Source: Piscicola geometra (Eukaryota > Annelida > Clitellata > Hirudinida > Piscicolidae). Taken from it: a stretch of 64,000 nucleotides of DNA. Location of the stretch: NCBI GenBank assembly GCA_943735955.1, contig OX030958.1, positions 11,971,862 to 12,035,861 of the forward strand, in the 5' to 3' direction. This document shows, one piece after another, positions 1 to 59,190 of this stretch. Positions within the stretch are counted from its first letter, which is position 1. Each line of letters begins with the position of its first letter. The translations under genes were made by a program, and so were the position numbers. The notes under the pieces were generated by a model. It was given only the letters and a program-made list of their open reading frames with translations. It made no database searches and was not told the DNA's origin.

Positions 1-76
1 CTATTAAAAAGTCGAATTTCAAATGTCAAACTAAATTATAAAGTGAAAAAAAAAGAAAAAGCAAAGAAGTAAATAG

Positions 77-231
77 TTATATATACCTAATAAGATGGCG
101 TATAAAAAAAATGAAGACGATGGTGACGATAACACTTATAAAAATGCCCGCGCAAGAGACGATGTAGGGAATCATGCGAAGAACATTAGCCCTCGAGATA
201 TTTCCACTGTGGGCGCTAGACTCCCCTGCCA
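77..231 (-). pseudogene. Orphan exon 2 of dispanin-like gene A (copy 1)
   Basis: On the minus strand an acceptor AG (233-232) preceded by a short CA-rich tract opens an exon starting TG-GCA-GGG-GAG. It encodes about 50 residues (AGESSAHSGNISRANVLRM followed by a hydrophobic segment) and stops at TAA, 77-79. Length, phase and order match exon 2 of B-F. The family loop is altered: GD has become GN and GA has become RA. No exon 1 is visible between the minisatellite and gene B, so the gene looks headless; it could still be a distal alternative 3' exon for gene B. The 3' flank (1-76) is paralogous to the 3' flank of gene B. Confident as a family exon, unsure whether it is expressed. Confidence 0.7.
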
Positions 232-279
232 CTGTGTGTGTATGTTTGTATGTGTTTATGTTTATGTGTGTGAGTATGT

Positions 280-3200
280 CTCCTGTGGATACTCCATCCT
301 GTGGATACTCCATCCTGTGGAGACTCCATCCTGTGGAGACTCCATCCTGTGGAGACTCCATCCTGTGGAGACTCCATCCTGTGGAGACTCCATCCTGTGG
401 ATACTCCATCCTGGGGAGACTTCATCCTGTGGATACTCCATCCTGTGGATACTCCATCCTGTGGATACTTCATCCTGTGGAGACTCCATCCTGTGGAGAC
501 TCCATCCTGTGGATACTTCATCCTGTGGAGACTCCATCCTGTGGATACTTCATCCTGTGGAGACTCCATCCTGTGGAGACTCCATCCTGTGGATACTCCA
601 TCCTGTGGAGACTTCATCCTGTGGAGACTCCATCCTGTGGAGACTCCATCCTGTGGATACTCCATCCTGTGGAGACTTCATCCTGTGGAGACTTCATTCT
701 GTGGAGACTTCATCCTGTGGAGACTCCATCCTGTGGAGACTTCATCCTGTGGAGACTCCATCCTGTGGAGACTCCATCCTGTGGAGACTCTATCCTGTGG
801 AGACTCCATCCTGTGGAGACTCCATCCTGTGGATACTTCGTCCTGGGGAGACTCCATCCTGTGGAGACTTCATCCTGTGGAGACTCCATCCTGTGGATAC
901 TTCATCCTGTGGATACTTCATCCTGTGGAGACTTCATCCTGTGGATACTTCATCCTGTGGAGACTCCATCCTGTGGAGACTCCATCCTGTGGATACTCCA
1001 TCCTGGGGATACTCCATCCTGTGGAGACTTCATCCTGTGGAGACTTCATCCTGTGGATACTCCATCCTGGGGATACTCCATCCTGTGGAAACTCCATCCT
1101 GTGAATACTCCATCCTGTGGATACTTCATCCTGTGGATACTTCATCCTGTGGAGACTTCATCCTGTGGATACTTCATCCTGTGGAGACTCCATCCTGTGG
1201 AGACTCCATCCTGTGGATACTCCATCCTGGGGATACTCCATCCTGTGGAGACTTCATCCTGTGGAGACTTCATCCTGTGGATACTCCATCCTGGGGATAC
1301 TCCATCCTGTGGAAACTCCATCCTGTGAATACTCCATCCTGTGGAGACTTCATCCTGTGGAGACTCCATCCTGTGGACACTTCATCCTGTGGAGACTTCA
1401 TCCTGTGGATACTTCATCCTGGGGAGACTCCATCCTGTGGAGACTCCATCCTGTGGATACTCCATCCTGTGGAGACTTCATCCTGTGGATACTCCATCCT
1501 GTGGAGACTCCATCCTGTGGATACTCCATCCTGTGGAGACTTCATCCTGTGGATACTCCATCCTGTGGATACTCCATCCTGTGGAGACTTCATCCTGTGG
1601 AGACTCCATCCTGTGGAGACTCCATCCTGTGGAGACTCCATCCTGTGGAGACTCCATCCTGTGGATACTCCATCCTGTGGAGACTCCATCCTGTGGAGAC
1701 TCCATCCTGTGGAGACTCCATCCTGTGGAGACTCCATCCTGTGGATACTTCATCCTGTGGAGACTCCATCCTGTGGAGACTCCATCCTGTGGATACTTCA
1801 TCCTGTGGAGACTCCATCCTGTGGAGACTCCATCCTGTGGATACTCCATCCTGTGGAGACTTCATCCTGTGGAAACTCCATCCTGTGGAGACTCCATCCT
1901 GTGGATACTCCATCCTGTGGAGACTTCATCCTGTGGAGACTTCATCCTGTGGAGACTCCATCCTGTGGAGACTCCATCCTGTGGAGACTCCATCCTGTGG
2001 ATACTCCATCCTGTGGAGACTTCATCCTGTGGATACTCCATCCTGTGGATACTCCATCCTGTGGAGACTTCATCCTGTGGAGACACCATCCTGTGGAGAC
2101 TCCATCCTGTGGAGACTCCATCCTGTGGAGACTCCATCCTGTGGATACTCCATCCTGTGGAGACTCCATCCTGTGGAGACTCCATCCTGTGGAGACTCCA
2201 TCCTGTGGAGACTCCATCCTGTGGAGACTCCATCCTGTGGAGACTCCATCCTGTGGAGACTCCATCCTGTGGAGACTCCATCCTGTGGAGACTCCATCCT
2301 GTGGAGACTCCATCCTGTGGAGACTCCATCCTGTGGAGACTCCATCCTGTGGAGACTTCATCCTGTGGAGATTCCATCCTGTGGAGACTCCATCCTGTGG
2401 ATACTCCATCCTGTGGAGACTTCATCCTGTGGAGACTCCATCCTGTGGAGACTCCATCCTGTGGATACTCCATCCTGTGGAGACTTCATCCTGTGGAGAC
2501 TTCATCCTGTGGAGACTTCATCCTGTGGAGACTCCATCCTGTGGAGACTTCATCCTGTGGAGACTCCATCCTGTGGAGACTCCATCCTGTGGAGACTCTA
2601 TCCTGTGGAGACTCCATCCTGTGGAGACTCCATCCTGTGGAGACTCCATCCTGTGGAGACTCCATCCTGTGGATACTTCATCCTGTGGAGACTCCATCCT
2701 GTGGAGACTCCATCCTGTGGATACTCCATCCTGTGGAGACTTCATCCTGTGGAGACTTCATCCTGTGGATACTCCATCCTGGGGATACTCCATCCTGTGG
2801 AAACTCCATCCTGTGAATACTCCATCCTGTGGAGACTTCATCCTGTGGAGACTCCATCCTGTGGACACTTCATCCTGTGGAGACTTCATCCTGTGGATAC
2901 TTCATCCTGGGGAGACTCCATCCTGTGGAGACTCCATCCTGTGGATACTCCATCCTGTGGAGACTTCATCCTGTGGATACTCCATCCTGTGGAGACTCCA
3001 TCCTGTGGATACTCCATCCTGTGGAGACTTCATCCTGTGGATACTCCATCCTGTGGATACTCCATCCTGTGGAGACTTCATCCTGTGGAGACTCCATCCT
3101 GTGGAGACTCCATCCTGTGGAGACTCCATCCTGTGGAGACTCCATCCTGTGGATACTCCATCCTGTGGAGACTCCATCCTGTGGAGACTCCATCCTGTGG

Positions 3201-6200
3201 AGACTCCATCCTGTGGAGACTCCATCCTGTGGATACTTCATCCTGTGGAGACTCCATCCTGTGGAGACTCCATCCTGTGGATACTTCATCCTGTGGAGAC
3301 TCCATCCTGTGGAGACTCCATCCTGTGGATACTCCATCCTGTGGAGACTTCATCCTGTGGAGACTCCATCCTGTGGAGACTCCATCCTGTGGATACTCCA
3401 TCCTGTGGAGACTTCATCCTGTGGAGACTTCATCCTGTGGAGACTCCATCCTGTGGAGACTCCATCCTGTGGAGACTCCATCCTGTGGATACTCCATCCT
3501 GTGGAGACTTCATCCTATGGATACTCCATCCTGTGGATACTCCATCCTGTGGAGACTTCATCCTGTGGAGACTCCATCCTGTGGAGACTCCATCCTGTGG
3601 AGACTCCATCCTGTGGAGACTCCATCCTGTGGATACTCCATCCTGTGGAGACTCCATCCTGTGGAGACTCCATCCTGTGGAGACTCCATCCTGTGGAGAC
3701 TCCATCCTGTGGAGACTCCATCCTGTGGAGACTCCATCCTGTGGAGACTCCATCTTGTGGAGACTCCATCCTGTGGAGACTCCATCCTGTGGAGACTCCA
3801 TCCTGTGGAGACTCCATCCTGTGGAGACTCCATCCTGTGGAGACTCCATCCTGTGGAGACTCCATCCTGTGGAGACTTCATCCTGTGGAGATTCCATCCT
3901 GTGGAGACTCCATCCTGTGGATACTCCATCCTGTGGAGACTTCATCCTGTGGAGACTCCATCCTGTGGAGACTCCATCCTGTGGATACTCCATCCTGTGG
4001 AGACTTCATCCTGTGGAGACTTCATCCTGTGGAGACTTCATCCTGTGGAGACTCCATCCTGTGGAGACTTCATCCTGTGGAGACTCCATCCTGTGGAGAC
4101 TCCATCCTGTGGAGACTCTATCCTGTGGAGACTCCATCCTGTGGAGACTCCATCCTGTGGATACTTCATCCTGGGGAGACTCCATCCTGTGGAGACTTCA
4201 TCCTGTGGAGACTCCATCCTGTGGATACTCCATCCTGTGGATACTTCATCCTGTGGAGACTTCATCCTGTGGATACTTCATCCTGTGGAGACTCCATCCT
4301 GTGGAGACTCCATCCTGTGGATACTCCATCCTGGGGATACTCCATCCTGTGGAGACTTCATCCTGTGGAGACTTCATCCTGTGGATACTCCATCCTGGGG
4401 ATACTCCATCCTGTGGAAACTCCATCCTGTGAATACTCCATCCTGTGGAGACTTCATCCTGTGGAGACTCCATCCTGTGGAGACTTCATCCTGTGGAGAC
4501 TTCATCCTGTGGATACTTCATCCTGGGGAGACTCCATCCTGTGGAGACTCCATCCTGTGGATACTCCATCCTGTGGAGACTTCATCCTGTGGATACTCCA
4601 TCCTGTGGAGACTTCATCCTGTGGAGACTCCATCCTGTGGATACTTCATCCTGTGGAGACTCCATCCTGTGGATACTTCATCCTGTGGAGACTCCATCCT
4701 GTGGATACTTCATCCTGTGGAGACTTCATCCTGTGGAGACTCCATCCTGTGGAGACTTCATCCTGTGGAGACTTCATCCTGTGGATACTCCATCCTGTGG
4801 ATACTCCATCCTGTGGAGACTTCATCCTGTGGAGACTCCATCCTGTGGAGACTCCATCCTGTGGATACTCCATCCTGTGGAGACTTCATCCTGTGGAGAC
4901 TTCATCCTGTGGAGACTTCATCCTGTGGAGACTCCATCCTGTGGAGACTTCATCCTGTGGAGACTCCATCCTGTGGAGACTCCATCCTGTGGAGACTCTA
5001 TCCTGTGGAGACTTCATCCTGTGCAGACTTCATCCTGTGGATACTTCATCCTGGGGAGACTCCATCCTGTGGAGACTCCATCCTGTGGATACTCCATCCT
5101 GTGGAGACTTCATCCTGTGGATACTCCATCCTGTGGAGACTTCATCCTGTGGAGACTCCATCCTGTGGATACTTCATCCTGTGGAGACTCCATCCTGTGG
5201 ATACTTCATCCTGTGGAGACTCCATCCTGTGGATACTTCATCCTGTGGAGACTTCATCCTGTGGAGACTCCATCCTGTGGAGACTTCATCCTGTGGAGAC
5301 TCCATCCTGTGGAGACTTCATCCTGTGGAGACTCCATCCTGTGGAGACTCCATCCTGTGGAGACTCCATCCTGTGGATACTCCATCCTGTGGAGACTTCA
5401 TCCTGTGGATACTCCATCCTGTGGATACTCCATCCTGTGGAGACTTCATCCTGTGGAGACTCCATCCTGTGGAGACTCCATCCTGTGGAGACTCCATCCT
5501 GTGGAGACTCCATCCTGTGGATACTCCATCCTGTGGAGACTCCATCCTGTGGAGACTCCATCCTGTGGAGACTCCATCCTGTGGAGACTCCATCCTGTGG
5601 ATACTTCATCCTGTGGAGACTCCATCCTGTGGAGACTCCATCCTGTGGAGACTTCATCCTGTGGAGACTTCATCCTGTGGAGACTACATCCTGTGGATAC
5701 TTCATCCTGTGGAGACTTCATCCTGTGGATACTTCATCCTGGGGAGACTCCATCCTGTGGAGACTCCATCCTGTGGAGACTTCATCCTGTGGAGACTTCA
5801 TCCTGTGGATACTTCATCCTGGGGAGACTCCATCCTGTGGAGACTTCATCCTGTAGAGACTCCATCCTGTGGAGACTTCATCCTGTGGAGACTCCATCCT
5901 GTGGAGACTCCATCCTGTGGATACTCCATCCTGTGGAGACTTCATCCTGTGGAGACTTCATCCTGTGGAGACTCCATCCTGTGGAGACTCCATCCTGTGG
6001 AGACTTCATCCTGTGGAGACTTCATCCTGTGGAGACTCCATCCTGTGGAGACTCCATCCTGTGGAGACTCCATCCTGTGGATACTCCATCCTGTGGAGAC
6101 TCCATCCTGTGGATACTCCATCCTGTGGAGACTCCATCCTGTGGAGACTCCATCCTGTGGAGACTCCATCCTGTGGAGACTCCATCCTGTGGATACTTCA

Positions 6201-9200
6201 TCCTGTGGAGACTCCATCCTGTGGAGACTCCATCCTGTGGAGACTTCATCCTGTGGAGACTTCATCCTGTGGATACTCCATCCTGTGGAGACTTCATCCT
6301 GTGGAGACTCCATCCTGTGGATACTTCATCCTGTGGAGACTCCATCCTGTGGATACTTCATTCTGTGGAGACTCCATCCTGTGGATACTTCATCCTGTGG
6401 AGACTTCATCCTGTGGAGACTCCATCCTGTGGAGACTTCATCCTGTGGAGACTCCATCCTGTGGAGACTTCATCCTGTGGAGACTTCATCCTGTGGATAC
6501 TTCATCCTGGGGAGACTCCATCCTGTGGAGACTCCATCCTGTGGAGACTTCATCCTGTGGAGACTTCATCCTGTGGATACTTCATCCTGGGGAGACTCCA
6601 TCCTGTGGAGACTTCATCCTGTAGAGACTCCATCCTGTGGAGACTTCATCCTGTGGAGACTCCATCCTGTGGAGACTCCATCCTGTGGATACTCCATCCT
6701 GTGGAGACTTCATCCTGTGGAGACTTCATCCTGTGGAGACTCCATCCTGTGGAGACTTCATCCTGTGGAGACTCCATCCTGTGGATACTTCATCCTGTGG
6801 AGACTCCATCCTGTGGATACTTCATCCTGTGGAGACTCCATCCTGTGGATACTCCATCCTGTGGAGACTCCATCCTGTGGAGACTCCATCCTGTGGAGAC
6901 TCCATCCTGTGGAGACTCCATCCTGTGGAGACTCCATCCTGTGGATACTTCATCCTGTGGAGACTCCATCCTGTGGAGACTCCATCCTGTGGAGACTTCA
7001 TCCTGTGGAGACTCCATCCTGTGGATACTCCATCCTGTGGAGACTTCATCCTGTGGATACTCCATCCTGTGGATACTCCATCCTGTGGAGACTTCATCCT
7101 GTGGAGACTCCATCCTGTGGAGACTCCATCCTGTGGAGACTCCATCCTGTGGAGACTCCATCCTGTGGATACTCCATCCTGTGGAGACTCCATCCTGTGG
7201 AGACTCCATCCTGTGGAGACTCCATCCTGTGGAGACTCCATCCTGTGGAGACTCCATCCTGTGGATACTTCATCCTGTGGAGACTCCATCCTGTGGAGAC
7301 TCCATCCTGTGGAGACTTCATCCTGTGGAGACTTCATCCTGTGGAGACTACATCCTGTGGATACTTCATCCTGTGGAGACTTCATCCTGTGGATACTTCA
7401 TCCTGGGGAGACTCCATCCTGTGGAGACTCCATCCTGTGGAGACTTCATCCTGTGGAGACTTCATCCTGTGGATACTTCATCCTGGGGAGACTCCATCCT
7501 GTGGAGACTTCATCCTGTAGAGACTCCATCCTGTGGAGACTTCATCCTGTGGAGACTCCATCCTGTGGAGACTCCATCCTGTGGATACTCCATCCTGTGG
7601 AGACTTCATCCTGTGGAGACTTCATCCTGTGGAGACTCCATCCTGTGGAGACTCCATCCTGTGGAGACTTCATCCTGTGGAGACTTCATCCTGTGGAGAC
7701 TCCATCCTGTGGAGACTCCATCCTGTGGAGACTCCATCCTGTGGATACTCCATCCTGTGGAGACTCCATCCTGTGGATACTCCATCCTGTGGAGACTCCA
7801 TCCTGTGGAGACTCCATCCTGTGGAGACTCCATCCTGTGGAGACTCCATCCTGTGGATACTTCATCCTGTGGAGACTCCATCCTGTGGAGACTCCATCCT
7901 GTGGAGACTTCATCCTGTGGAGACTTCATCCTGTGGATACTCCATCCTGTGGAGACTTCATCCTGTGGAGACTCCATCCTGTGGATACTTCATCCTGTGG
8001 AGACTCCATCCTGTGGATACTTCATCCTGTGGAGACTCCATCCTGTGGATACTTCATCCTGTGGAGACTTCATCCTGTGGAGACTCCATCCTGTGGAGAC
8101 TTCATCCTGTGGAGACTCCATCCTGTGGAGACTTCATCCTGTGGAGACTCCATCCTGTGGAGACTCCATCCTGTGGAGACTCCATCCTGTGGATACTCCA
8201 TCCTGTGGAGACTTCATCCTGTGGATACTCCATCCTGTGGATACTCCATCCTGTGGAGACTTCATCCTGTGGAGACTCCATCCTGTGGAGACTCCATCCT
8301 GTGGAGACTCCATCCTGTGGAGACTCCATCCTGTGGATACTCCATCCTGTGGAGACTCCATCCTGTGGAGACTCCATCCTGTGGAGACTCCATCCTGTGG
8401 AGACTCCATCCTGTGGATACTTCATCCTGTGGAGACTCCATCCTGTGGAGACTCCATCCTGTGGAGACTTCATCCTGTGGAGACTTCATCCTGTGGAGAC
8501 TACATCCTGTGGATACTTCATCCTGTGGAGACTTCATCCTGTGGATACTTCATCCTGGGGAGACTCCATCCTGTGGAGACTCCATCCTGTGGAGACTTCA
8601 TCCTGTGGAGACTTCATCCTGTGGATACTTCATCCTGGGGAGACTCCATCCTGTGGAGACTTCATCCTGTAGAGACTCCATCCTGTGGAGACTTCATCCT
8701 GTGGAGACTCCATCCTGTGGAGACTCCATCCTGTGGATACTCCATCCTGTGGAGACTTCATCCTGTGGAGACTTCATCCTGTGGAGACTCCATCCTGTGG
8801 AGACTCCATCCTGTGGAGACTTCATCCTGTGGAGACTTCATCCTGTGGAGACTCCATCCTGTGGAGACTCCATCCTGTGGAGACTCCATCCTGTGGATAC
8901 TCCATCCTGTGGAGACTTCATCCTGTGGATACTCCATCCTGTGGATACTCCATCCTGTGGAGACTTCATCCTGTGGAGACTCCATCCTGTGGAGACTCCA
9001 TCCTGTGGAGACTCCATCCTGTGGAGACTCCATCCTGTGGATACTCCATCCTGTGGAGACTCCATCCTGTGGAGACTCCATCCTGTGGAGACTCCATCCT
9101 GTGGAGACTCCATCCTGTGGAGACTCCATCCTGTGGAGACTCCATCCTGTGGAGACTCCATCCTGTGGAGACTCCATCCTGTGGAGACTCCATCCTGTGG

Positions 9201-12138
9201 AGACTCCATCCTGTGGAGACTCCATCCTGTGGAGACTCCATCCTGTGGAGACTCCATCCTGTGGAGACTCCATCCTGTGGAGACTCCATCCTGTGGAGAC
9301 TCCATCCTGTGGAGACTTCATCCTGTGGAGATTCCATCCTGTGGAGACTCCATCCTGTGGATACTCCATCCTGTGGAGACTTCATCCTGTGGAGACTCCA
9401 TCCTGTGGAGACTCCATCCTGTGGATACTCCATCCTGTGGAGACTTCATCCTGTGGAGACTTCATCCTGTGGAGACTTCATCCTGTGGAGACTCCATCCT
9501 GTGGAGACTTCATCCTGTGGAGACTCCATCCTGTGGAGACTCCATCCTGTGGAGACTCTATCCTGTGGAGACTCCATCCTGTGGAGACTCCATCCTGTGG
9601 ATACTTCATCCTGAGGAGACTCCATCCTGTGGAGACTTCATCCTGTGGAGACTCCATCCTGTGGATACTCCATCCTGTGGATACTTCATCCTGTGGAGAC
9701 TTCATCCTGTGGATACTTCATCCTGTGGAGACTCCATCCTGTGGAGACTCCATCCTGTGGATACTCCATCCTGGGGATACTCCATCCTGTGGAGACTTCA
9801 TCCTGTGGAGACTTCATCCTGTGGATACTCCATCCTGGGGATACTCCATCCTGTGGAAACTCCATCCTGTGAATACTCCATCCTGTGGAGACTTCATCCT
9901 GTGGAGACTCCATCCTGTGGAGACTTCATCCTGTGGAGACTTCATCCTGTGGATACTTCATCCTGGGGAGACTCCATCCTGTGGAGACTCCATCCTGTGG
10001 ATACTCCATCCTGTGGAGACTTCATCCTGTGGATACTCCATCCTGTGGAGACTTCATCCTGTGGAGACTCCATCCTGTGGATACTTCATCCTGTGGAGAC
10101 TCCATCCTGTGGATACTTCATCCTGTGGAGACTCCATCCTGTGGATACTTCATCCTGTGGAGACTTCATCCTGTGGAGACTCCATCCTGTGGAGACTACA
10201 TCCTGTGGATACTTCATCCTGTGGAGACTTCATCCTGTGGATACTTCATCCTGGGGAGACTCCATCCTGTGGAGACTCCATCCTGTGGAGACTTCATCCT
10301 GTGGAGACTTCATCCTGTGGATACTTCATCCTGTGGATACTTCATCCTGGGGAGACTCCATCCTGTGGAGACTTCATCCTGTAGAGACTCCATCCTGTGG
10401 AGACTCCATCCTGTGGATACTCCATCCTGTGGAGACTCCATCCTGTGGAGACTCCATCCTGTGGATACTCCATCCTGTGGAGACTCCATCCTGGGGAGAC
10501 TCCATCCTGTGGAGACTTCATCCTGTGGAGACTCCATCCTGTGGAGACTCCATCCTGTGGAGACTTCATCCTGTGGAGATTCCATCCTGTGGAGACTCCA
10601 TCCTGTGGATACTCCATCCTGTGGAGACTTCATCCTGTGGAGACTCCATCCTGTGGAGACTCCATCCTGTGGATACTCCATCCTGTGGAGACTTCATCCT
10701 GTGGAGACTTCATCCTGTGGAGACTTCATCCTGTGGAGACTCCATCCTGTGGAGACTTCATCCTGTGGAGACTCCATCCTGTGGAGACTCCATCCTGTGG
10801 AGACTCTATCCTGTGGAGACTCCATCCTGTGGAGACTCCATCCTGTGGATACTTCATCCTGGGGAGACTCCATCCTGTGGAGACTTCATCCTGTGGAGAC
10901 TCCATCCTGTGGATACTCCATCCTGTGGATACTTCATCCTGTGGATACTTCATCCTGTGGAGACTTCATCCTGTGGATACTTCATCCTGTGGAGACTCCA
11001 TCCTGTGGAGACTCCATCCTGTGGATACTCCATCCTGGGGATACTCCATCCTGTGGAGACTTCATCCTGTGGAGAATTCATCCTGTGGATACTCCATCCT
11101 GGGGATACTCCATCCTGTGGAAACTCCATCCTCTGAATACTCCATTCTGTGGAGACTTCATCCTGTGGAGACTCCATCCTGTGGAGACTTCATCCTGTGG
11201 AGACTTCATCCTGTGGATACTTCATCCTGGGGAGACTCCATCCTGTGGAGACTCCATCCTGTGGATACTCCATCCTGTGGAGACTTCATCCTGTTGATAC
11301 TCCATCCTGTGGAGACTTCATCCTGTGGAGACTCCATCCTGTGGATACTTCATCCTGTGGAGACTCCATCCTGTGGATACTTCATCCTGTGGAGACTCCA
11401 TCCTGTGGATACTTCATCCTGTGGAGACTTCATCCTGTGGAGACTCCATCCTGTGGAGACTACATCCTGTGGATACTTCATCCTGTGGAGACTTCATCCT
11501 GTGGATACTTCATCCTGGGGAGACTCCATCCTGTGGAGACTCCATCCTGTGGAGACTTCATCCTGTGGAGACTTCATCCTGTGGATACTTCATCCTGGGG
11601 AGACTCCATCCTGTGGAGACTTCATCCTGTAGAGACTCCATCCTGTGGAGACTCCATCCTGTGGATACTCCATCCTGTGGAGACTCCATCCTGTGGAGAC
11701 TCCATCCTGTGGATACTCCATCCTGTGGAGACTCCATCCTGGGGAGACTCCATCCTGTGGAGACTTCATCCTGTGGAGACTCCATCCTGTGGAGACTCCA
11801 TCCTGTGGATACTTCATCCTGTGGAGACTTCATCCTGTGGAGACTTCATCCTGTGGATACTTCATCCTGTGGAGACTTCATCCTGTGGATACTCCATCCT
11901 GTGGAGACTTCATCCTGTGGAGACTTCATCCTGTGGATACTCCATCCTGTGGAGACTCCATCCTGTGGATACTTCATCCTGTGGAGACTCCATCCTGTGG
12001 AGACTTCATCCTATGGAGACTTCATCCTGTGGATACTCCATCCTGTGGAGACTCCATCCTGTGGATACTTCATCCTGTGGAGACTCCATCCTGTGGAGAC
12101 TTCATCCTGTGGAGACTTCATCCTGTGGAGGCTTCATC
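280..12138. repeat. 16-bp minisatellite, copy 1 (11.86 kb, about 741 units)
   Basis: Tandem units of GGAGACTCCATCCTGT, with frequent G/T at position 4 (GGAGAC or GGATAC) and C/T at position 8 (TCC or TTC), plus rare GGGG, GGAAAC, GGACAC and GAATAC forms. Marker variants recur at distances that are exact multiples of 16 (224, 1488, 1616, 5440 and 1264 bp between the six GAATAC-type units ending near 1104, 1328, 2816, 4432, 9872 and 11136), so there is almost no length variation in the unit. Because 16 is not a multiple of 3 and the unit lacks stops, all six frames are open and give SILWRLHPVETPSCGD (plus) or MESPQDGVSTGWSLHR (minus) repeats. It sits where the intron of gene A would be, directly upstream of that acceptor. 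Confidence 0.97.
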
Positions 12139-13067
12139 TTTTTGTGATTTTATTATGTGAAACTTCACTCTTAATAAATAAATTTTTAATATAACTAAAA
12201 TTAATTAAAAGTGTGCTAATAGGTTGGTGTTTTACGGTACTTACTACAGTTCTATTTGTAGCTCACTTTTTTTCTCTTCTTACATGTATTATTTCTTTTT
12301 AAAAACACAAAGCGTTTCTTTTATTTCTAGCATACATTAAACTATTTTTATCAATCAGCTTAGTTGGAAAGTTTCTAGCTAAGATGAATAATATTAAATA
12401 TCGTTATTATGTTAGGTAATTAATTAATACGTAAATGTGATTTGAAAAAGTTATTATGTTGATTAGACTTTTGATCCTTTGTGTTTTGGCATGCATATGA
12501 AAAAATAGTTTGTGAAAACTGTTACACTGAATTAATTCGATGATGTCACGATTTGAATAATTATGTATTCAATTTTTGTCTTTTTTGGTGTCAAAAATGT
12601 TTGCAAAATTAAAAAACAAAAAGTAACCAGACCTGTCAGGGCGTGTCCGAAAGATTTTTTACACTCAGTACTGGATACTAAATTCCAATTTTACATTATT
12701 TTATCAAATCTTTATGGAATACTGAATATTTGAAGTGTCTTTTCTCCCAACACTCGATGCCTCGTTTGAAGCGTATAAAAATAATAAAAATATGATATTA
12801 AAAAAATTAAATTTATTTAATTTAACATGCATTGTTAAAATGTTTGTAATTGTAAATCTATAATAAAATATCGATTGAAATAGTTGAACATGAGAGTTGA
12901 TAAAATGGTTGTTTGGTGTCATAGAATAGTATTTCAAGTGTAAGTCATAGGAAAAAATATTTTGTCAATTACTTTTTTGAAAGTAGGCGGAAAAAAACTA
13001 TTGAGAAGTCAAATTTCAGATGTCAATCTAGAAAATACAGTGAAAACAAATCTAGAAAGCAAAGAAG
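12139..13067. other. AT-rich spacer between minisatellite and gene B (copy 1)
   Basis: No supported gene. The short open frame at 12704-12937 (minus) has no recognisable content. From about 12830 the sequence is paralogous to the DNA just left of exon A (compare 23270-23470), so it is the 3' flank of gene B. No dispanin exon 1 is found here. Confidence 0.6.
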
Positions 13068-14437
<1,370 letters not shown>

Positions 14438-14503
14438 TTTTCTACACTATGAATTATATTGTTGCGATTAAAACAGGTGTGTCAAACGTTATAACATAAC
14501 GTC

Positions 14504-14511
14504 GTTATATA
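14504..14511 (-). promoter_or_regulatory. TATA box of gene B (copy 1)
   Basis: TATATAAC on the minus strand, about 67 bases upstream of the B start codon. Paralogues C, D and E have TATA-like boxes at comparable distances. Confidence 0.5.
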
Positions 14512-15588
14512 CTCTAGCTGTATCTGACTAAGGCGCTCACTAAGCTATAAATGTAATCTATTTATATTATTTATTTATAATCAAGGAAAAATTCCATTGA
14601 ACAGGCCTAGTGCAAGCTACATCTTTAGAAATAAATTTACAACTTCTTTTTTTATATTTATATTCATTTATTTTATGGAACTGTAAGAACGAAGACAAAC
14701 CAAGTTTTTCATGGAACACAAAATGTATTATGTGTGTCAAATAATTTATTATGTACCCTTTATACCTCATTGATAAAACTCTGAAAAATTCTTCATCAAC
14801 TACTTTTTCAAACATTTAAGTTTGTAAAGGAAAGCCTGAATTTTATAAATGTTAAAGGTGAAAAAATTGGAATGACCGTAAATCACCATGTATAAAGTAT
14901 AATGCGTACTTTTGCTCAAGCTTTACAATGCCGCAGGTGTAAAGATTTAGCGATAATAAAATGGTCGCTAATTCCAAATTTTTTTCTCGTTTTAGTTTCT
15001 TTAAATATTTTTTTATATTCAAAAAAATGGAAAAACAGGTCTCATACATGGTTTATCAGGTATTTTGTATCGGTTTAGTACGGCTATATATTTAGAAAAA
15101 ACTCACCATTTTATTTAAATATTAGTCCTAAAACTGTAGGTTTTAGTAAATTATCAAAAGGATTTCAATACATATTTATTGATCAATTCAGATTCATTAA
15201 CTTCTTGAAATAATAACCTACTTTTTTGTGGGGGAAAAGTCGTCTCATAAATGAATTAATAAATGTTCTCTTTTTGTGATACATGAGTAAGATTATCAGA
15301 TCAATATATTTTATTTAATACGTCTGTATAATATTTCTTAAATAAAATATCGATTGAAGATTTCATTTAAAAGTTTTGTTTTTGTCGTAGAATAAACATT
15401 TCAAGAAAAGTCTTTGGTAAGTGTCATGTTTTTGAGTATGTTGTAAGTGAATATTAAAAATATTTTGTTTAAAAATTGAATCTTATATGTCGAGAGAACA
15501 ATAAAACATAGATGGTTAAAAAAATCTAAACCGTAGATGTTTGTAGAGAAGACAAAACTGCCAAGTGGCTGAACCTCCTTTATAATAA
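14512..15588. other. AT-rich spacer between genes B and C (copy 1)
   Basis: No recognisable gene. Two minus-strand open frames (14567-14815 and 14852-15049) have no family features and low-complexity AT-driven composition. Around 15310-15430 the sequence resembles the 3' flanks of A and B, so it is the 3' flank of gene C. Confidence 0.55.
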
Positions 15589-16986
<1,398 letters not shown>

Positions 16987-17041
16987 GTTTGGATCAAAGA
17001 CAATAGCACAAACAGTACATGTGTGCTAAATATTGTCAACG

Positions 17042-17761: not shown

Positions 17762-17795
<34 letters not shown>

Positions 17796-34163: not shown

Positions 34164-35551
<1,388 letters not shown>

Positions 35552-36326: not shown

Positions 36327-36360
<34 letters not shown>

Positions 36361-42193: not shown

Positions 42194-42241
42194 CTGTGTG
42201 TGTATGTTTGTATGTGTTTATGTTTATGTGTGTGAGTATGT

Positions 42242-45200: not shown

Positions 45201-48200
45201 CATCCTGTGGATACTCCATCCTGTGGATACTTCATCCTGTGGAGACTTCATCCTGTGGATACTTCATCCTGTGGAGACTCCATCCTGTGGAGACTCCATC
45301 CTGTGGATACTCCATCCTGGGGATACTCCATCCTGTGGAGACTTCATCCTGTGGAGACTTCATCCTGTGGATACTCCATCCTGGGGATACTCCATCCTGT
45401 GGAAACTCCATCCTGTGAATACTCCATCCTGTGGAGACTTCATCCTGTGGAGACTCCATCCTGTGGAGACTTCATCCTGTGGAGACTTCATCCTGTGGAT
45501 ACTTCATCCTGGGGAGACTCCATCCTGTGGAGACTCCATCCTGTGGATACTCCATCCTGTGGAGACTTCATCCTGTGGATACTCCATCCTGTGGAGACTT
45601 CATCCTGTGGAGACTCCATCCTGTGGATACTTCATCCTGTGGAGACTCCATCCTGTGGATACTTCATCCTGTGGAGACTCCATCCTGTGGATACTTCATC
45701 CTGTGGAGACTTCATCCTGTGGAGACTCCATCCTGTGGAGACTTCATCCTGTGGAGACTTCATCCTGTGGATACTCCATCCTGTGGATACTCCATCCTGT
45801 GGATACTCCATCCTGTGGAGACTTCATCCTGTGGAGACTCCATCCTGTGGAGACTCCATCCTGTGGATACTCCATCCTGTGGAGACTTCATCCTGTGGAG
45901 ACTTCATCCTGTGGAGACTTCATCCTGTGGAGACTCCATCCTGTGGAGACTTCATCCTGTGGAGACTCCATCCTGTGGAGACTCCATCCTGTGGAGACTC
46001 TATCCTGTGGAGACTCCATCCTGTGGAGACTCCATCCTGTGGATACTTCATCCTGGGGAGACTCCATCCTGTGGAGACTTCATCCTGTGAAGACTCCATC
46101 CTGTGGATACTCTATCCTGTGGATACTTCATCCTGTGGAGACTTCATCCTGTGGATACTTCATCCTGTGGAGACTCCATCCTGTGGAGACTCCATCCTGT
46201 GGATACTCCATCCTGGGGATACTCCATCCTGTGGAGACTTCATCCTGTGGAGACTTCATCCTGTGGATACTCCATCCTGGGGATACTCCATCCTGTGGAA
46301 ACTCCATCCTGTGAATACTCCATCCTGTGGAGACTTCATCCTGTGGAGACTCCATCCTGTGGAGACTTCATCCTGTGCAGACTTCATCCTGTGGATACTT
46401 CATCCTGGGGAGACTCCATCCTGTGGAGACTCCATCCTGTGGATACTCCATCCTGTGGAGACTTCATCCTGTGGATACTCCATCCTGTGGAGACTTCATC
46501 CTGTGGAGACTCCATCCTGTGGATACTTCATCCTGTGGAGACTCCATCCTGTGGATACTTCATCCTGTGGAGACTCCATCCTGTGGATACTTCATCCTGT
46601 GGAGACTTCATCCTGTGGAGACTCCATCCTGTGGAGACTTCATCCTGTGGATACTCCATCCTGTGGAGACTTCATCCTGTGGAGACTCCATCCTGTGGAT
46701 ACTTCATCCTGTGGAGACTCCATCCTGTGGATACTTCATCCTGTGGAGACTCCATCCTGTGGATACTTCATCCTGTGGAGACTTCATCCTGTGGAGACTC
46801 CATCCTGTGGAGACTTCATCCTGTGGAGACTCCATCCTGTGGAGACTTCATCCTGTGGAGACTCCATCCTGTGGAGACTCCATCCTGTGGAGACTCCATC
46901 CTGTGGATACTCCATCCTGTGGAGACTTCATCCTGTGGATACTCCATCCTGTGGATACTCCATCCTGTGGAGACTTCATCCTGTGGAGACTCCATCCTGT
47001 GGAGACTCCATCCTGTGGAGACTCCATCCTGTGGAGACTCCATCCTGTGGATACTCCATCCTGTGGAGACTCCATCCTGTGGAGACTCCATCCTGTGGAG
47101 ACTCCATCCTGTGGAGACTCCATCCTGTGGATACTTCATCCTGTGGAGACTCCATCCTGTGGAGACTCCATCCTGTGGAGACTTCATCCTGTGGAGACTT
47201 CATCCTGTGGAGACTTCATCCTGTGGAGACTCCATCCTGTGGAGACTTCATCCTGGGGAGACTCCATCCTGTGGAGACTCCATCCTGTGGAGACTTCATC
47301 CTGTGGAGACTTCATCCTGTGGATACTTCATCCTGGGGAGACTCCATCCTGTGGAGACTTCATCCTGTAGAGACTCCATCCTGTGGAGACTTCATCCTGT
47401 GGAGACTCCATCCTGTGGAGACTCCATCCTGTGGATACTCCATCCTGTGGAGACTTCATCCTGTGGAGACTTCATCCTGTGGAGACTCCATCCTGTGGAG
47501 ACTCCATCCTGTGGAGACTTCATCCTGTGGAGACTTCATCCTGTGGAGACTCCATCCTGTGGAGACTCCATCCTGTGGAGACTCCATCCTGTGGATACTT
47601 CATCCTGTGGAGACTCCATCCTGTGGAGACTTCATCCTGTGGAGACTCCATCCTGTGGATACTCCATCCTGTGGAGACTTCATCCTGTGGAGACTCCATC
47701 CTGTGGAGACTTCATCCTGTGGAGACTCCATCCTGTGGAGACTCCATCCTGTGGAGACTCTATCCTGTGGAGACTCCATCCTGTGGAGACTCCATCCTGT
47801 GGATACTTCATCCTGGGGAGACTCCATCCTGTGGAGACTTCATCCTGTGAAGACTCCATCCTGTGGATACTCTATCCTGTGGATACTTCATCCTGTGGAG
47901 ACTTCATCCTGTGGATACTTCATCCTGTGGAGACTCCATCCTGTGGAGACTCCATCCTGTGGATACTCCATCCTGGGGATACTCCATCCTGTGGAGACTT
48001 CATCCTGTGGAGACTTCATCCTGTGGATACTCCATCCTGGGGATACTCCATCCTGTGGAAACTCCATCCTGTGAATACTCCATCCTGTGGAGACTTCATC
48101 CTGTGGAGACTCCATCCTGTGGAGACTCCATCCTGTGGATACTCCATCCTGTGGAGACTCCATCCTGTGGAGACTCCATCCTGTGGAGACTCCATCCTGT

Positions 48201-49318
48201 GGAGACTCCATCCTGTGGAGACTCCATCCTGTGGATACTTCATCCTGTGGAGACTCCATCCTGTGGAGACTCCATCCTGTGGAGACTTCATCCTGTGGAG
48301 ACTTCATCCTGTGGAGACTACATCCTGTGGATACTTCATCCTGTGGAGACTTCATCCTGTGGATACTTCATCCTGGGGAGACTCCATCCTGTGGAGACTC
48401 CATCCTGTGGAGACTTCATCCTGTGGAGACTTCATCCTGTGGATACTTCATCCTGGGGAGACTCCATCCTGTGGAGACTTCATCCTGTAGAGACTCCATC
48501 CTGTGGAGACTCCATCCTGTGGATACTCCATCCTGTGGAGACTCCATCCTGTGGAGACTCCATCCTGTGGATACTCCATCCTGTGGAGACTCCATCCTGG
48601 GGAGACTCCATCCTGTGGAGACTTCATCCTGTGGAGACTCCATCCTGTGGAGACTCCATCCTGTGGATACTTCATCCTGTGGAGACTTCATCCTGTGGAG
48701 ACTTCATCCTGTGGATACTTCATCCTGTGGAGACTTCATCCTGTGGATACTCCATCCTGTGGAGACTTCATCCTGTGGAGACTTCATCCTGTGGATACTC
48801 CATCCTGTGGAGACTCCATCCTGTGGATACTTCATCCTGTGGAGACTCCATCCTGTTAGATACTTCATCCTGTGGAGACTTCATCCTGTGGAGACTTCAT
48901 CCTGTGGAGACTCCATCCTGTGGAGACTCCATCCTGTGGATACTTCATCCTGTGGAGACTTCATCCTGTGGAGACTTCATCCTGTGGATACTTCATCCTG
49001 TGGAGACTTCATCCTGTGGATACTCCATCCTGTGGAGACTTCATCCTGTGGAGACTTCATCCTGTGGATACTCCATCCTGTGGAGACTCCATCCTGTGGA
49101 TACTTCATCCTGTGGAGACTCCATCCTGTTAGATACTTCATCCTGTGGAGACTTCATCCTGTGGAGACTCCATCCTGTGGAGACTTCATCCTATGGAGAC
49201 TTCATCCTGTGGATACTCCATCCTGTGGAGACTCCATCCTGTGGATACTTCATCCTGTGGAGACTCCATCCTGTGGAGACTTCATCCTGTGGAGACTTCA
49301 TCCTGTGGAGGCTTCATC
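42242..49318. repeat. 16-bp minisatellite, copy 3 (7.08 kb, about 442 units)
   Basis: Very close to copy 2 in unit order (long right-hand blocks match unit by unit), including both 17-bp CCTGTTAGATAC units near 48856 and 49129. Its left part differs from copy 2 by gains and losses of whole 16-bp units, for example one unit fewer near 42935 and different block order near 44200. Confidence 0.97.
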
Positions 49319-50247
49319 TTTTTGTGATTTTATTATGTGAAACTTCACTCTTAATAAATAAATTTTTAATATAACTAAAATTAATTAAAAGTGTGCTAAT
49401 AGGTTGGTGTTTTACGGTACTTACTACAGTTCTATTTGTAGCTCACTTTTTTTCTCTTCTTACATGTATTATTTCTTTTTAAAAACACAAAGCGTTTCTT
49501 TTATTTCTAGCATACATTAAACTATTTTTATCAATCAGCTTAGTTGGAAAGTTTCTAGCTAGGATGAATAATATTAAATATCGTTATTATGTTAGGTAAT
49601 TAATTAATACGTAAATGTGATTTGAAAAAGTTATTATGTTGATTAGACTTTTGATCCTTTGTGTTTTGGCATGCATATGAAAAAATAGTTTGTGAAAACT
49701 GTTACACTGAATTAATTCGATGATGTCACGATTTGAATAATTATGTATTCAATTTTTGTCTTTTTTGGTGTCAAAAATGTTTGCAAAATTAAAAAACAAA
49801 AAGTAACCAGACCTGTCAGGGCGTGTCCGAAAGATTTTTTACACTCAGTACTGGATACTAAATTCCAATTTTACATTATTTTATCAAATCTTTATGGAAT
49901 ACTGAATATTTGAAGTGTCTTTTCTCCCAACACTCGATGCCTCGTTTGAAGCGTATAAAAATAATAAAAATATGATATTAAAAAAATTAAATTTATTTAA
50001 TTTAACATGCATTGTTAAAATGTTTGTAATTGTAAATCTATAATAAAATATCGATTGAAATAGTTGAACATGAGAGTTGATAAAATGGTTGTTTGGTGTC
50101 ATAGAATAGTATTTCAAGTGAAAGTCATAGGAAAAAATATTTTGTCAATTACTTTTTTGAAAGTAGGCGGAAAAAAACTATTGAGAAGTCAAATTTCAGA
50201 TGTCAATCTAGAAAATACAGTGAAAACAAATCTAGAAAGCAAAGAAG
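49319..50247. other. AT-rich spacer between minisatellite and gene B (copy 3)
   Basis: Equivalent of 12139-13067. No gene recognised. Confidence 0.55.
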
Positions 50248-51629
<1,382 letters not shown>

Positions 51630-51695
51630 TTTTCTACACTATGAATTATATTGTTGCGATTAAAACAGGTGTGTCAAACGTTATAACATAACGTC

Positions 51696-51703
51696 GTTAT
51701 ATA
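51696..51703 (-). promoter_or_regulatory. TATA box of gene B (copy 3)
   Basis: TATATAAC, same spacing from the start codon as in copy 1. Confidence 0.5.
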
Positions 51704-52780
51704 CTCTAGCTGTATCTGACTAAGGCGCTCACTAAGCTATAAATGTAATCTATTTATATTATTTATTTATAATCAAGGAAAAATTCCATTGAACAGGCCT
51801 AGTGCAAGCTACATCTTTAGAAATAAATTTACAACTTCTTTTTTTATATTTATATTCATTTATTTTATGGAACTGTAAGAACGAAGACAAACCAAGTTTT
51901 TCATGGAACACAAAGTGTATTATGTGTGTCAAATAATTTATTATGTACCCTTTATACCTCATTGATAAAACTCTGAAAAATTCTTCATCAACTACTTTTT
52001 CAAACATTTAAGTTTGTAAAGGAAAGCCTGAATTTTATAAATGTTAAAGGTGAAAAAATTGGAATGACCGTAAATCACCATGTATAAAGTATAATGCGTA
52101 CTTTTGCTCAAGCTTTACAATGCCGCAGGTGTAAAGATTTAGCGATAATAAAATGGTCGCTAATTCCAAATTTTTTTCTCGTTTTAGTTTCTTTAAATAT
52201 TTTTTTATATTCAAAAAAATGGAAAAACAGGTCTCATACATGGTTTATCAGGTATTTTGTATCGGTTTAGTACGGCTATATATTTAGAAAAAACTCACCA
52301 TTTTATTTAAATATTAGTCCTAAAACTGTAGGTTTTAGTAAATTATCAAAAGGATTTCAATACATATTTATTGATCAATTCAGATTCATTAACTTCTTGA
52401 AATAATAACCTACTTTTTTGTGGGGGAAAAGTCGTCTCATAAATGAATTAATAAATGTTCTCTTTTTGTGATACATGAGTAAGATTATCAGATCAATATA
52501 TTTTATTTAATACGTCTGTATAATATTTCTTAAATAAAATATCGATTGAAGATTTCATTTAAAAGTTTTGTTTTTGTCGTAGAATAAACATTTCAAGAAA
52601 AGTCTTTGGTAAGTGTCATGTTTTTGAGTATGTTGTAAGTGAATATTAAAAATATTTTGTTTAAAAATTGAATCTTATATGTCGAGAGAACAATAAAACA
52701 TAGATGGTTAAAAAAATCTAAACCGTAGATGTTTGTAGAGAAGACAAAACTGCCAAGTGGCTGAACCTCCTTTATAATAA
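51704..52780. other. AT-rich spacer between genes B and C (copy 3)
   Basis: Equivalent of 14512-15588. Nothing recognised. Confidence 0.5.
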
Positions 52781-54170
<1,390 letters not shown>

Positions 54171-54225
54171 GTTTGGATCAAAGACAATAGCACAAACAGT
54201 ACATGTGTGCTAAATATTGTCAACG

Positions 54226-54233
54226 CATTTATA
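54226..54233 (-). promoter_or_regulatory. TATA box of gene C (copy 3)
   Basis: TATAAATG, same spacing from the start codon as in copy 1. Confidence 0.5.
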
Positions 54234-54945
54234 CCTTAGCTGTGCCTTATGCACTCACCCTAGCTAGACGTAGAGTAGCTATATAATATATATACTATGT
54301 ACATATATATTAAATTTTTATACAAAAGCCGTATTCCGATGAGCAACCATGGACCACATATTTTTATTACTCAAAAACACGACAGCATTGAAAAATCGTT
54401 CAAGGGGTCTATTGCTTTCTCAGTGAAAAACCTTTGAAAAGGAAAAATATCTAAAAATCATAATTTTGTATCTAAAATGCCTCAAAAATTTGACAAGTAG
54501 CAAGCACAATCATGCCGTCCACCTATCGCTTCAGAGAAACACCTTAAAGACGACGCTTTACGTTCCTTTATCAATCAGCTTAAAAGATTCGTTATACAAT
54601 TCTCTGAGCAATGAAATTCGCACGACTGATTCGAAAACAATAAAATATCTTAACATAATCTTAAATCTAATCCCCTACCACTGGCTAAAAATAGTTTAAA
54701 TAAATTGTTATTATTATTATTATCGTGCTCTACCATTCATTTAGAAATACACTACATGCACTAGGACAGTTTTTTTGTTTTTAGTTAAATTAAATATAAA
54801 AGTTATAAAAATATATGTATATATATATATATTATATACCCATGCATTTTAAAACTAAATCAACATCAAGCCCATTCCCTACTTTCAAGAACAACGGAAA
54901 GTATTATAAAAATGGGGTTTTGTTAATCACAACATTTTAATATAA

Positions 54946-54979
<34 letters not shown>

Positions 54980-55187
54980 TCTTCAGATCTTTACGAAAAG
55001 TAAATAATGATTTAGAAGTAGTTAAATAAGGAGGTAATGAGTTCCAAATATATGAACCAGCATAATGGAAAGAACGTTTAGCAAAAGAGTTATTAATGGA
55101 AGAGATGAAATATTGATTTTGAGTGGATGATCTTAAATTACTTCTATGAGGGTGAGATATTAATGATTTTAGGTATATTGGGGATAC

Positions 55188-57126
55188 GGATCTAGTATTT
55201 TAATCCAACTCCACAAACAATTGGGTGGAGCAACGTAGTTAAGGGGTGGAGCTTAAATAAAACTTTGGCAGACGCCATTACGACGATTACGGCTATTTTA
55301 AATTATCTTAGTTTTATTTAGTTTTAACAAGTTTTTTTCCTATATTTAACGTTAATTCTTAAATAATATATAATTTTATAATATAAATTTTGAATCTAAA
55401 TATAAATTTTGAAGTGTTTTAGAATTTAGATTTCTTAAATTCATCGGTGCTTAAATCTTTGCCTCAATTATGGAAAAAAGACCTTGTAGACGTTTTTAAA
55501 GACATGTCAGTGTAACTTTTATTTTCTATCTTTCTGACTATGGAAATAGGAGGCTGCAGAGGCCAATCAGACTGTCATGAGGATGCCAAGCCTGAAAAGA
55601 TGGAGGAGGAAAAAGAATAAGAAACAGATATGGAGAGCTTGAAAAGGTAACTCGGGGATAGAACATAATGTAGTTGTTCCATAGTCCTTCACACCATGGG
55701 AGATGAAAGACCCTGCATATATGTACTTCTGTAACTTCCATACTCGCTATTGATTACCACAGAAAGGTTTTGCAGCTCAATTCCGACTCTGCCATGACCT
55801 TCAAATGGAAGGAGAAAACCACAGGCAAGTGGGAAGAGAGCTACAGATACCTGAACAAGGCACATCAAGAGTGCAATGCAGCCAGAAAGGAGGGCGAGCC
55901 GAAGATGAAGAAAATGTTTTTGCTATGTTTTGTATCATTTTTTAATTAAATAAACAATTACTTTTTTTTATTCAAATGAAATATTTTCTGAGGTAAAAAA
56001 AGACAACTTGTGATTTTATAATTTTATTCAAGAACATGAAATTCACTAATGTTATTTAAAATATTAATGAATAAATCTTGTGTTTTTTTGTGTGCTTCCA
56101 CAAGAATTCAGCTATGTAGCTGTCCATCTGTGACTTTGAGATGCCCCTTTCAATCTTTTTCAGTTGTTTGAGTTGCCCCCACATACTCTCAACCGTTTGT
56201 GTATGGGCTCTAGTGGTGGGTTCAACAAAATTTGTACTGTGGTTTGGGTATAGTCCATTCCAATCATGACTTCGATCCCCTGGTAGGATGCCCACCTGTC
56301 AGATAAGATGATGGAGCCTGGAGCGATGCAGGCCCTGATCACTCCCAGCAGTGTGGTTGCAGTTCTATCCGGCACAGCATACATGAATGCTTCTTTCGTC
56401 TCCCTGAAAATACCACCAAAAACCCACTGCTGTGGAAGTAGTCAGCCTTGGTGGTTCTTGCGTTTGGAGAATAAGGTCTCGTCTATTTCGACATGCAGAC
56501 CTGGGCCACCAACAACCAATGGAGTCTGAAAGATTCTCCAGAGACACACTTCTCGTATAGCACTTTTCCAGGAGATAAACGTGGAATGTGAAATTAGTAA
56601 TTCTTTTTGACAGAATTTAAATGAAATTAAGTTATCGCTCCAGCAATAAATGAAGACAATAACTTTTTTCAGCTCTATTCTATATTTCTCTAACCATGTT
56701 TCTTTCCTTAGGCTTATTCTCTGCCTGCAACTTCTTTTGAAGCACCTCCATGCCTCCAAAGGAACACATAGTTTCATACTATGTCCATTCCTGCATAAAC
56801 GATTCGAATGTAGAATACCATAACTCTGAAAAAATTGTATTGCCATCTCATTGTTAAACGCTAAAATAGTACTAAAATTCATCTTATCGTCTTAACTAGC
56901 ATTAGAAATAATAACCTCTGTATATTTAACTAAAACGATTTTTTCGAATTGATAAACTATACTATTTAAATTATCAAACTATTTTATTTTAATTCTAAAA
57001 TATTTGAATAAACTTCAAGTAAATACATTTTATAACTATTAAAAATTACTTTTAGTTGTTAAAAAATCTTTAAGCTCCACCCCTTAACTACGTAACTTGG
57101 TGGAGTTGGATTAAAATACTAGATCC
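55188..57126 (-). mobile_element. Merlin-type DNA transposon (copy 3)
   Basis: Target-site duplications GGGGATAC at 55180-55187 and 57127-57134. Confidence 0.92.
56056..56882 (-). pseudogene. Merlin transposase, inactivated (copy 3)
   Basis: Same premature TGA and frameshift as in copy 1. Confidence 0.9.
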
Positions 57127-58293
57127 GGGGATACTAGAGAGTTTTTTAGTTTAAACATAAAAACACAGATTTTAAATATAATCCTAAATTTAATGGGGAG
57201 CCAATGTAATAAGATGAGGCGCCAATGCGACACCCAAATCCCTTCGTGACCATATTAACGTGAGTTGCTTTGGAGGCACAGCAACCGAAGTACGGAAGTT
57301 TTTCGACAATTCTCAATGGCTTTTGCCATTTGAGGCTCTTGAATATAACAAAAATGCTAAGTTGTGTGTTTTATAATTATTTTTAAAGTGACGGGTTTAT
57401 ATATTTAGTGTACAACAAGATAGAATATTGAACCCAATATTTTCTTAACCTGTAATATTTCCGTTTAAAAAATATTTACTAAAATAATACTTTTATAATT
57501 TAAATAATGTAAGAAGCGATAGATGTTTGTGTTTCCTCATATGGGCCCTTGCCTTGTTTGTCTTCCTAGTACTTCAGAACCTCACCATCGAGCCTTTCTC
57601 ATCTGAATGGCTCGGCTCCGATGAATAATCTCGCCAACTCAACTTGAGTTACTAAAGGGTTTGCTCTTTCAACTCATCATATTGCCGCTGAACATCGGAC
57701 GGAAATTGTTATTTCAGTTTCTTGAGCTCTTGTTTTTATAAGTGCTGCCTAATCCAAGTCTCTCGAGTTTAATTAAATCAAGCTCTGAGAAAGGATTAAT
57801 TGTTAGACTATGCCGCTACACGACTCATTTTTAGAGAATTTTTTAAAACAAATTTATTAAGTAAATATTAAATTTGATACATTAAAGTTTATCAATAGAA
57901 TGAAATCTTCATTTGATACAGTTCAATCTGAAAGTTTATAAATCGCACCGTCGATCATGTTTCAAGTGCAAATAAGATGAAATCGTTTAGTTTTTAAATC
58001 GTATATTCATTGGTCATAGTCGAAGAAGAATGCATTGAAATCGTCACACATTGAAGGGGTTGCACACTGAAAGACTAGGGTTCAGTCAGTCAGTCTCCCA
58101 CAGTCTCCCAGACTTCAATATGAACCTTTCCAGATTGAAAAATAATTGTTAAGAATTGTAAAAAAGGCGGGAAGAAAAAGCAAGCGGAAAAATCACATGT
58201 GCACATCATGGCGAAGAAGAGTTCTATGAGGATTCAGAAACTAGCACTAAAAGTTGTTTTTCCGGTTAGGAGTTTCAAAAAAATCTAATAAAA

Positions 58294-59190
58294 TCAATTG
58301 AATCGATTCCAGTTATAATCACGGTTGTCATTGAGCGTTTTGATGCTTTGGTTAACAGTGACTCCAACGTATATGCCGACGATGATGGCAATGATTACAG
58401 TGACTGCAATGCCCACAGCCGAGACGATGTACGAAGCCTTGCGGAGATTTTTCGCTCCTGTGGCGTCCCCACTGCTTGCCGAAGACTGGCCTGACACTGT
58501 GTGTGTGTGATGTATTCTTATTGATGTATTCGTTTTGGTAATGTGTTTAAGTGACGTATGTGGAAAAACAATTCCTGTTATTCTTTCAAAAACATTATAA
58601 AAAATGATAACTTTAAGCTCTATTTAAAACAAAATAAAAACATTTATAAAATATGTTTAGCTCCAAGATAGGACGTAGTTGCAAGGTTGCCATACCTACG
58701 GAAACCAACACAATGGCACAATCAATACTCTTAATTAATTTGGCAAAAAAACGAAACTTGTATTATATTTTTAAATAAAATTCGCTTATTAAATATTCAA
58801 AATTATTTAGAACGTTTACTCACGTGCTAGGATAAAAGCGATGGTTCCAAATATGATCCCACAGCACCAGTACACGAAACAGGAAAGCAAAATAGCGCCT
58901 GTGAAATCCACTCCAACTGGGGGAGCCATCACCACATTTATTGGTTGAGATGAATACATTGGTTGTTGACCGGTATAGGGTTGTTGTTGACCGGGGTATG
59001 GTTGTGGTTGAGCGGGGTATGGTTGTTGTTGACTGGGGTATGGTTGTTGTTGACCGGGGTATGGTTGTTGTTGACCGGGGTATGATTGTTGTTGACCGGG
59101 ATAGGGTTGTTGTTGACTGGGATATGGTGGTTGATTGGTTTCTTGTCCAGAGACAGATCCGAACGAGTATTTGTTGCCTTGGTCTTGCAT
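58294..59190 (-). CDS. Dispanin/CD225-like two-TM protein D (intact)
   Basis: Two exons: 59190-58824 (ATG, MQDQGNKYSFGS) and 58496-58294 (TGA), about 189 residues. Exon 1 has about eight PGQQQPY-type heptads (roughly residues 25-82), then APPVGVDFTGAILLSCFVYW with CCG and IIFGTIAFILA. Exon 2 reads SGQSSASSGDATGAKNLRKA, then SYIVSAVGIAVTVIIAIIVG and a polar tail ending NRFN. The donor is C|GTGAGT and the acceptor follows a short (CA)n, giving a Leu split codon. The intron is only 327 bp, and its TG tract is a few repeats long. This is the best match to the CD225/dispanin consensus in the window: it has both the CCG motif and GD-x-x-GA loop. The duplication breakpoint maps to its second exon (after 58404), so this is the only complete copy. 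Confidence 0.86.

Follow-up and report, generated by a model that had tools for sequence, protein, structure and literature searches.

A probable recent tandem triplication within a dispanin gene cluster of the leech Piscicola geometra

The stretch analysed here, referred to as the window, comprises 64,000 nucleotides of contig OX030958.1 (C4, positions 11971862-12035861) of the Piscicola geometra assembly GCA_943735955.1, searched here as 171.0 Mb in 66 contigs. It holds most of three head-to-tail, near-identical copies of a unit that carries the predicted two-exon genes B and C and an orphan exon 2, A, all apparently related to the dispanin (CD225/IFITM) family (Table 1). We consider it probable that these copies are the outcome of a recent tandem segmental triplication within a dispanin cluster, in which a non-homologous tandem duplication was followed by unequal homologous exchange. 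Judged by its sequence alone, the triplication is real and well bounded. A first-pass annotation of the window had already described three such copies, a description that self-comparison, edges and joints all bear out.

With the arrays of a 16-bp minisatellite left out, positions 12139-23677 match 30706-42242 at 99.8% identity and 12139-21224 match 49319-58407 at 99.7%, so that direct copies span 9.1-11.5 kb at 99.7-99.8%. Chance cannot be the source of a similarity this long and this identical, and direct copies of more than 1 kb, high identity and a common joint are what defines a tandem segmental duplication. The first-pass annotation had bounded the unit by positions 1 and 58404. Its right edge lies exactly at 58404, but base 1 is only the edge of the window; the left edge lies at -2178, where the exact common run starts, while the alignment extends back to -2184 (negative coordinates count bases to the left of the window start, -2178 being C4 position 11969683). 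The constant offset of 18,565 bp proposed for copies 1 and 2 holds at 16.1-21.2 kb; because the lengths of TG tracts differ, it rises to 18,567 at 12.4-12.9 kb and to 18,575 at 14.7 kb. To the left of the array the offset is about 23,398.

Both internal joints follow the D side of the unit through the C at 21220 or 39785 and then continue from that same C on the Z side, so that 1 bp is shared. The right edge interrupts exon 2 of dispanin D, and the left edge interrupts the intron of an opposite-strand dispanin gene, Z. The Z and D sides have an inverted stretch in common (89% over 578 bp), which contains the right edge and lies 248 bp from the left edge. This kinship in opposite orientation leaves each junction flanked by inverted-repeat arms of about 388 bp.

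Counts of differences between the copies exclude the arrays, both TG tracts and bases misaligned right at the breakpoints (-2180 and -2179, and 21221-21224 and 39786-39789 versus 58405-58408). Copies 2 and 3 show zero substitutions relative to each other, and copy 1 is set apart from both by 8 substitutions in about 10.9 kb (roughly 0.07%). Four of these, two of them adjacent, fall in the left 2.46 kb together with one 1-bp indel; the other four, at 12382, 12941, 14723 and 16620, fall in the right part, the last being the single base that sets exon 1 of C in copy 1 apart from its counterparts in the other two copies (Phe119 to Leu); exon 2 of C is the same in all copies. Beyond 35185 in copy 2 all copies are identical up to the joint. 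The variants by which copies 2 and 3 had been grouped against copy 1 are thus real, as are the 17-bp minisatellite units cited for the same grouping (two each in copies 2 and 3, zero in copy 1), and substitutions, indel and array unit maps agree in making copies 2 and 3 the most similar pair.

The TG tracts and the arrays vary most. All three copies differ from one another in the TG tracts. An alignment of array 2 with array 3 pairs 424 identical units and 1 substituted unit and contains six gaps; that of array 1 with array 2 pairs 378 identical and 17 substituted units and contains many gaps, one of 165 units. The array lies between exon 2 of B and exon 2 A, outside the predicted intron of B, and is nearly private to the locus: of the 1576 forward matches in the genome to a 25-base pattern, with at most 2 mismatches, 1566 fall in the window, and the opposite strand adds 11 further matches.

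We propose that the first event linked a broken exon 2 of D to the broken intron of Z, the two ends having 1 bp in common, which would have generated two tandem copies. The joint itself is observed; since it offers no useful direct homology, a non-homologous or replication-based process such as end joining or template switching may be inferred. The second joint is the same as the first, and unequal exchange between long, nearly identical copies would therefore be the simplest origin of the third copy. In unequal exchange the crossover is the point at which the middle copy passes from the sequence of one parent to that of the other. As every informative site up to 35185 groups copy 2 with copy 3 and all copies are alike beyond, a crossover after 16620 in copy 1 and 35185 in copy 2, in the last 4.6 kb where all copies are identical, would fit. 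Gene conversion between copies 2 and 3 gives the same grouping and fits as well. The 16-bp minisatellite and the TG tracts would then have changed fastest, as their differences indicate.

Several points weigh against this proposal. The step to three copies could instead have been gene conversion or a replication slip, the order of events is read off similarity only, the gene models are predictions obtained by conceptual splicing, and all four complete genes in the window score below the cut-off of 27.1 bits for Pfam CD225 (PF04505). The copy number is taken from the assembly and could be wrong. One or two real copies could have been laid down three times, for example as two alleles of a shorter array placed in a row: the 18.6-kb unit exceeds the common length of HiFi reads, which average 11.58 kb in one leech project (PMC10887747), and copies 2 and 3 differ in repeats only, where assemblies also err. 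We regard such an artefact as unlikely. No exact repeat between copies exceeds 7,770 bp (16621-24390 versus 35186-42955), so reads of more than 8 kb can separate the copies; the differences between copies 2 and 3 are spread across the array and both TG tracts, and array 1 is longer by about 300 units. At least some molecules should contain the joint, and two tandem copies are thus likely to be real. A 1001-base query with exon 1 of C and its flank was matched over its full length three times (each printed as 100%), always within the window and never on another contig; the remainder of the 131 matches, on many contigs, are partial and at most 88% identical. Repeat length and genome matches together make a wrong copy count less likely.

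It is very unlikely that the copies are old and were kept alike by gene conversion, with copies 2 and 3 converted recently. A synonymous divergence lower in exon 2 than in exon 1 for the pairs C-D and D-E does hint at conversion within the family, but the identity between copies is unit-wide and extends beyond the genes into intergenic DNA, a transposon and the junction. The proposed triplication might also have been driven by the minisatellite or by the inverted Z/D homology, a possible if rather doubtful addition that would refine the two-step origin, with which it is compatible. Five array units (329-408) taken as single-stranded DNA fold better than 200 of 200 shuffles (z -3.6), but neither edge of the unit lies within the array. 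The right break is inside the inverted Z/D stretch and the left break 248 bp from it, but inverted homology alone cannot yield a direct duplication.

Table 1. Features of the triplicated locus in window coordinates. Genes are predictions.
Feature	Position	Strand	Details
Unit copy 1	-2178..21219	+	23,398 bp; starts 2.2 kb left of window
Unit copy 2	21220..39784	+	18,565 bp
Unit copy 3	39785..58404	+	18,620 bp; right edge within exon 2 of D
Copy 1/copy 2 junction	21214..21224		right edge of unit joined to left edge; 1 bp shared (C, 21220)
Copy 2/copy 3 junction	39779..39789		letters match first junction in stretch compared
Inverted repeat across copy 1/2 junction	20746..22030		arms about 388 bp, 95%
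Array, copy 1	281..12138		741 units; consensus TCCTGTGGAGACTCCA
Array, copy 2	23678..30705		439 units
Array, copy 3	42243..49318		442 units
Truncated D exon 2, end of copy 1	21110..21220	-	
Truncated D exon 2, end of copy 2	39675..39785	-	
Stranded Z exon 2, copy 3	40043..40221	+	
Orphan dispanin exon 2 A, copy 1	80..231	-	open; acceptor sequence present
Orphan exon 2 A, copy 2	23477..23628	-	
Orphan exon 2 A, copy 3	42042..42193	-	
Dispanin B, copy 1	13068..14437	-	predicted; exon 1 13795-14437, exon 2 13068-13252
Dispanin B, copy 2	31635..33012	-	both exons as in copy 1
Dispanin B, copy 3	50248..51629	-	both exons as in copy 1
Dispanin C, copy 1	15589..16974	-	predicted; exon 1 16614-16974, exon 2 15589-15761; Phe119
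Dispanin C, copy 2	34164..35539	-	Leu119
Dispanin C, copy 3	52781..54158	-	base at variant site as in copy 2 (Leu)
Dispanin D, complete	58294..59190	-	predicted; exon 1 58824-59190, exon 2 58294-58496; contains right edge of unit
Dispanin E, single-copy, outside unit	60394..60972	-	predicted
Merlin-like DNA transposon within unit (presumed class)	18003..19943	-	inverted ends of 31 and 25 nt; frames interrupted
Exon-2 acceptor sites compared	232, 13253, 15762, 58497, 60585	-	plus five + strand exon 2s upstream

The tripling of B and C stated in the first-pass annotation is confirmed, and orphan exon A was tripled along with them; no exon 1 for A was found between 12139 and 13300. Across the 244 kb that surround the locus, 2.5 kb of which is N, a profile search identified 7 types of exon 1 and 10 of exon 2, where each triplicated exon counts as one and negative-scoring chance hits are excluded. 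Directly to the right of the window, 2,500 N occupy 64001-66500. Orphan exon 2s are A, which adjoins the array, and the near-identical duplicates U2 and U3, which belong to a second recent tandem duplication, upstream in the cluster (-139117 to -129575; L019, L020), whose copies are offset by 5.0-5.2 kb and are 97-99.9% identical in pieces. A third direct pair of at least 400 bp and at least 95% identity was not found in the 244 kb. In 8 of the 10 exon-2 types, the exceptions being Z and E, CACACA stands directly before the acceptor G on the sense strand, and long (CA)n tracts precede several acceptors; the 70 bases inspected at these sites show no evident pyrimidine tract. Five other dispanin-like loci lie elsewhere in the genome (L028-L032; on C4, C1 and C11), and two of them, L031 and L032, have apparent GC-type donors.

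The assignment to the CD225/IFITM-related proteins rests more on architecture, namely intron place, hydrophobic pair, cysteines and GxxxG, than on Pfam score. In the dispanin/CD225 family, IFITM included, an intron in the loop splits two hydrophobic segments between two exons behind a proline-rich N terminus (PMC3282796), and the predicted proteins are alike in these traits. Phase-1 GT...AG introns are predicted in B, C, D, E and Z, each of them placed in the loop that separates the hydrophobic pair. At the first hydrophobic segment C, D and E have the cysteine motif YWCCG, B has YWLCG and Z has YWCGC. A GxxxG in the loop, present in 5 of the 10 exon-2 types (B, C, D, E and U1), is likewise the oligomerisation motif of IFITM3, with G91/G95 (PMC7665892); it is missing from Z and U4, both of which have an exon 1, and from the orphans A, U2 and U3. 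A homologue search with E found one protein, P0001 (47% identity over 70% of the query), which reads uninterrupted across the predicted splice point as FILALVGQSSAS, and a search with C found none at E 0.001 among 177 candidates. The Pfam cut-off is passed by 3 of the 12 predicted proteins. Unspliced exons gave no CD225 match, and a CD225 search of the genome gave none either, which shows no absence, since the 14 controls also stayed without a match; in our reading the domain is missed in both because the intron splits it. The cluster departs from the family in Pfam scores around or below the cut-off, in repeat-rich N termini (PYPGQQQ units) and in CA tracts that run to the exon-2 acceptor in most genes. 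Another lophotrochozoan, Aplysia, likewise has several dispanin genes (10; PMC9334734), and no literature on dispanin/IFITM genes in annelids was found among the titles listed.

Purifying selection on the end of exon 1 is clear in 3 of the 7 pairs tested. Over the last 30 codons, synonymous (pS) and nonsynonymous (pN) divergence are 0.70 and 0.10 for C-D, 0.82 and 0.09 for D-E, and 0.69 and 0.13 for B-C, with P printed as 0.000 each time, and constraint was not significant for Z-D, Z-U1, U1-D and B-D. Exon 2 gave significance in none of the 10 pairs tested. Positive selection on exon 2 of Z-D is not claimed, since pN (0.20) exceeds pS (0.08) with P = 0.13. Synonymous divergence in exon 2 is about half of that in exon 1 (0.41 versus 0.70 for C-D, 0.31 versus 0.82 for D-E), which may reflect exon-wise conversion.

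In copies 2 and 3 the triplication left exon 2 of Z with no exon 1 to accompany it. On the plain reading stranded exons are debris. We think it improbable that the orphan exon 2s (A, U2/U3 and Z in copies 2 and 3), the loops of which have no GxxxG, form an exchangeable pool of terminal exons into which the exon 1 of a complete same-strand neighbour splices, so that exon 1 of B could be joined to A across the giant array and exon 1 of U1 to U2 and U3. Donor and acceptor sites as predicted agree in phase, and each orphan exon is open and carries an acceptor sequence, but no constraint was detected on A compared with B (pN 0.37, pS 0.42, P = 0.57), which speaks against alternative last exons. If such isoforms were made, they might serve as non-oligomerising partners.

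Recent tandem segmental duplications enlarge gene clusters, and the event described here is of a known kind that leaves knowledge of gene-family growth unchanged. Shared with other such duplications are a first joint without long homology, later copies that reuse this joint and truncated genes at the edges. The unit differs from the usual ones in carrying a 7-12 kb, nearly locus-private minisatellite and in having edges that interrupt two inverted relatives of one family; less usual, too, is that terminal exons, which might serve as alternative last exons, were stranded repeatedly. The consequence is that B and C, both of them two-exon genes for membrane proteins and apparently intact, are present three times, together with stranded or truncated exons at the junctions. 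If B and C are expressed, the most likely effect would be a higher dose of both, and a role in membrane fusion or infection would be suggested only by analogy with IFITM3, IFITM proteins being antiviral restriction factors that stiffen membranes and inhibit the fusion of virus and cell. The locus offers a base-resolved expansion of a dispanin cluster in an animal group for which we found no literature on these genes; like joints and graded array differences make the order of events readable, and copy number could be tracked in populations.

Within the unit, the transposon has a likely 8-bp target duplication (GGGGATAC) and a match to an ISXO2-like transposase (PF12762, 29 bits, cut-off 27); we take it to be a Merlin element. 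Near the right end of the window, at about 63650-63840, the translation contains a PHD-finger-like stretch, which presumably resembles BRPF proteins. Repeats of TTAGGG/CCCTAA were not found in the last 10 kb of C4, which ends 300 kb to the right, and we do not place the locus close to a telomere. Elsewhere in the assembly, contig C66 contains a cox1 gene in which 12 in-frame TGA codons are read as Trp; the gene order of this contig, read by eye with only cox1 and the putative nad2 frame translated, is nad3-nad2-cox1-cox2-atp8-cox3, which we assume to be the annelid mitochondrial order. The genome further gave 43 antistasin-domain matches and 5 destabilase matches, and the closest PDB chain to one destabilase exon is the lysozyme 8bbu, presumably the Hirudo enzyme.
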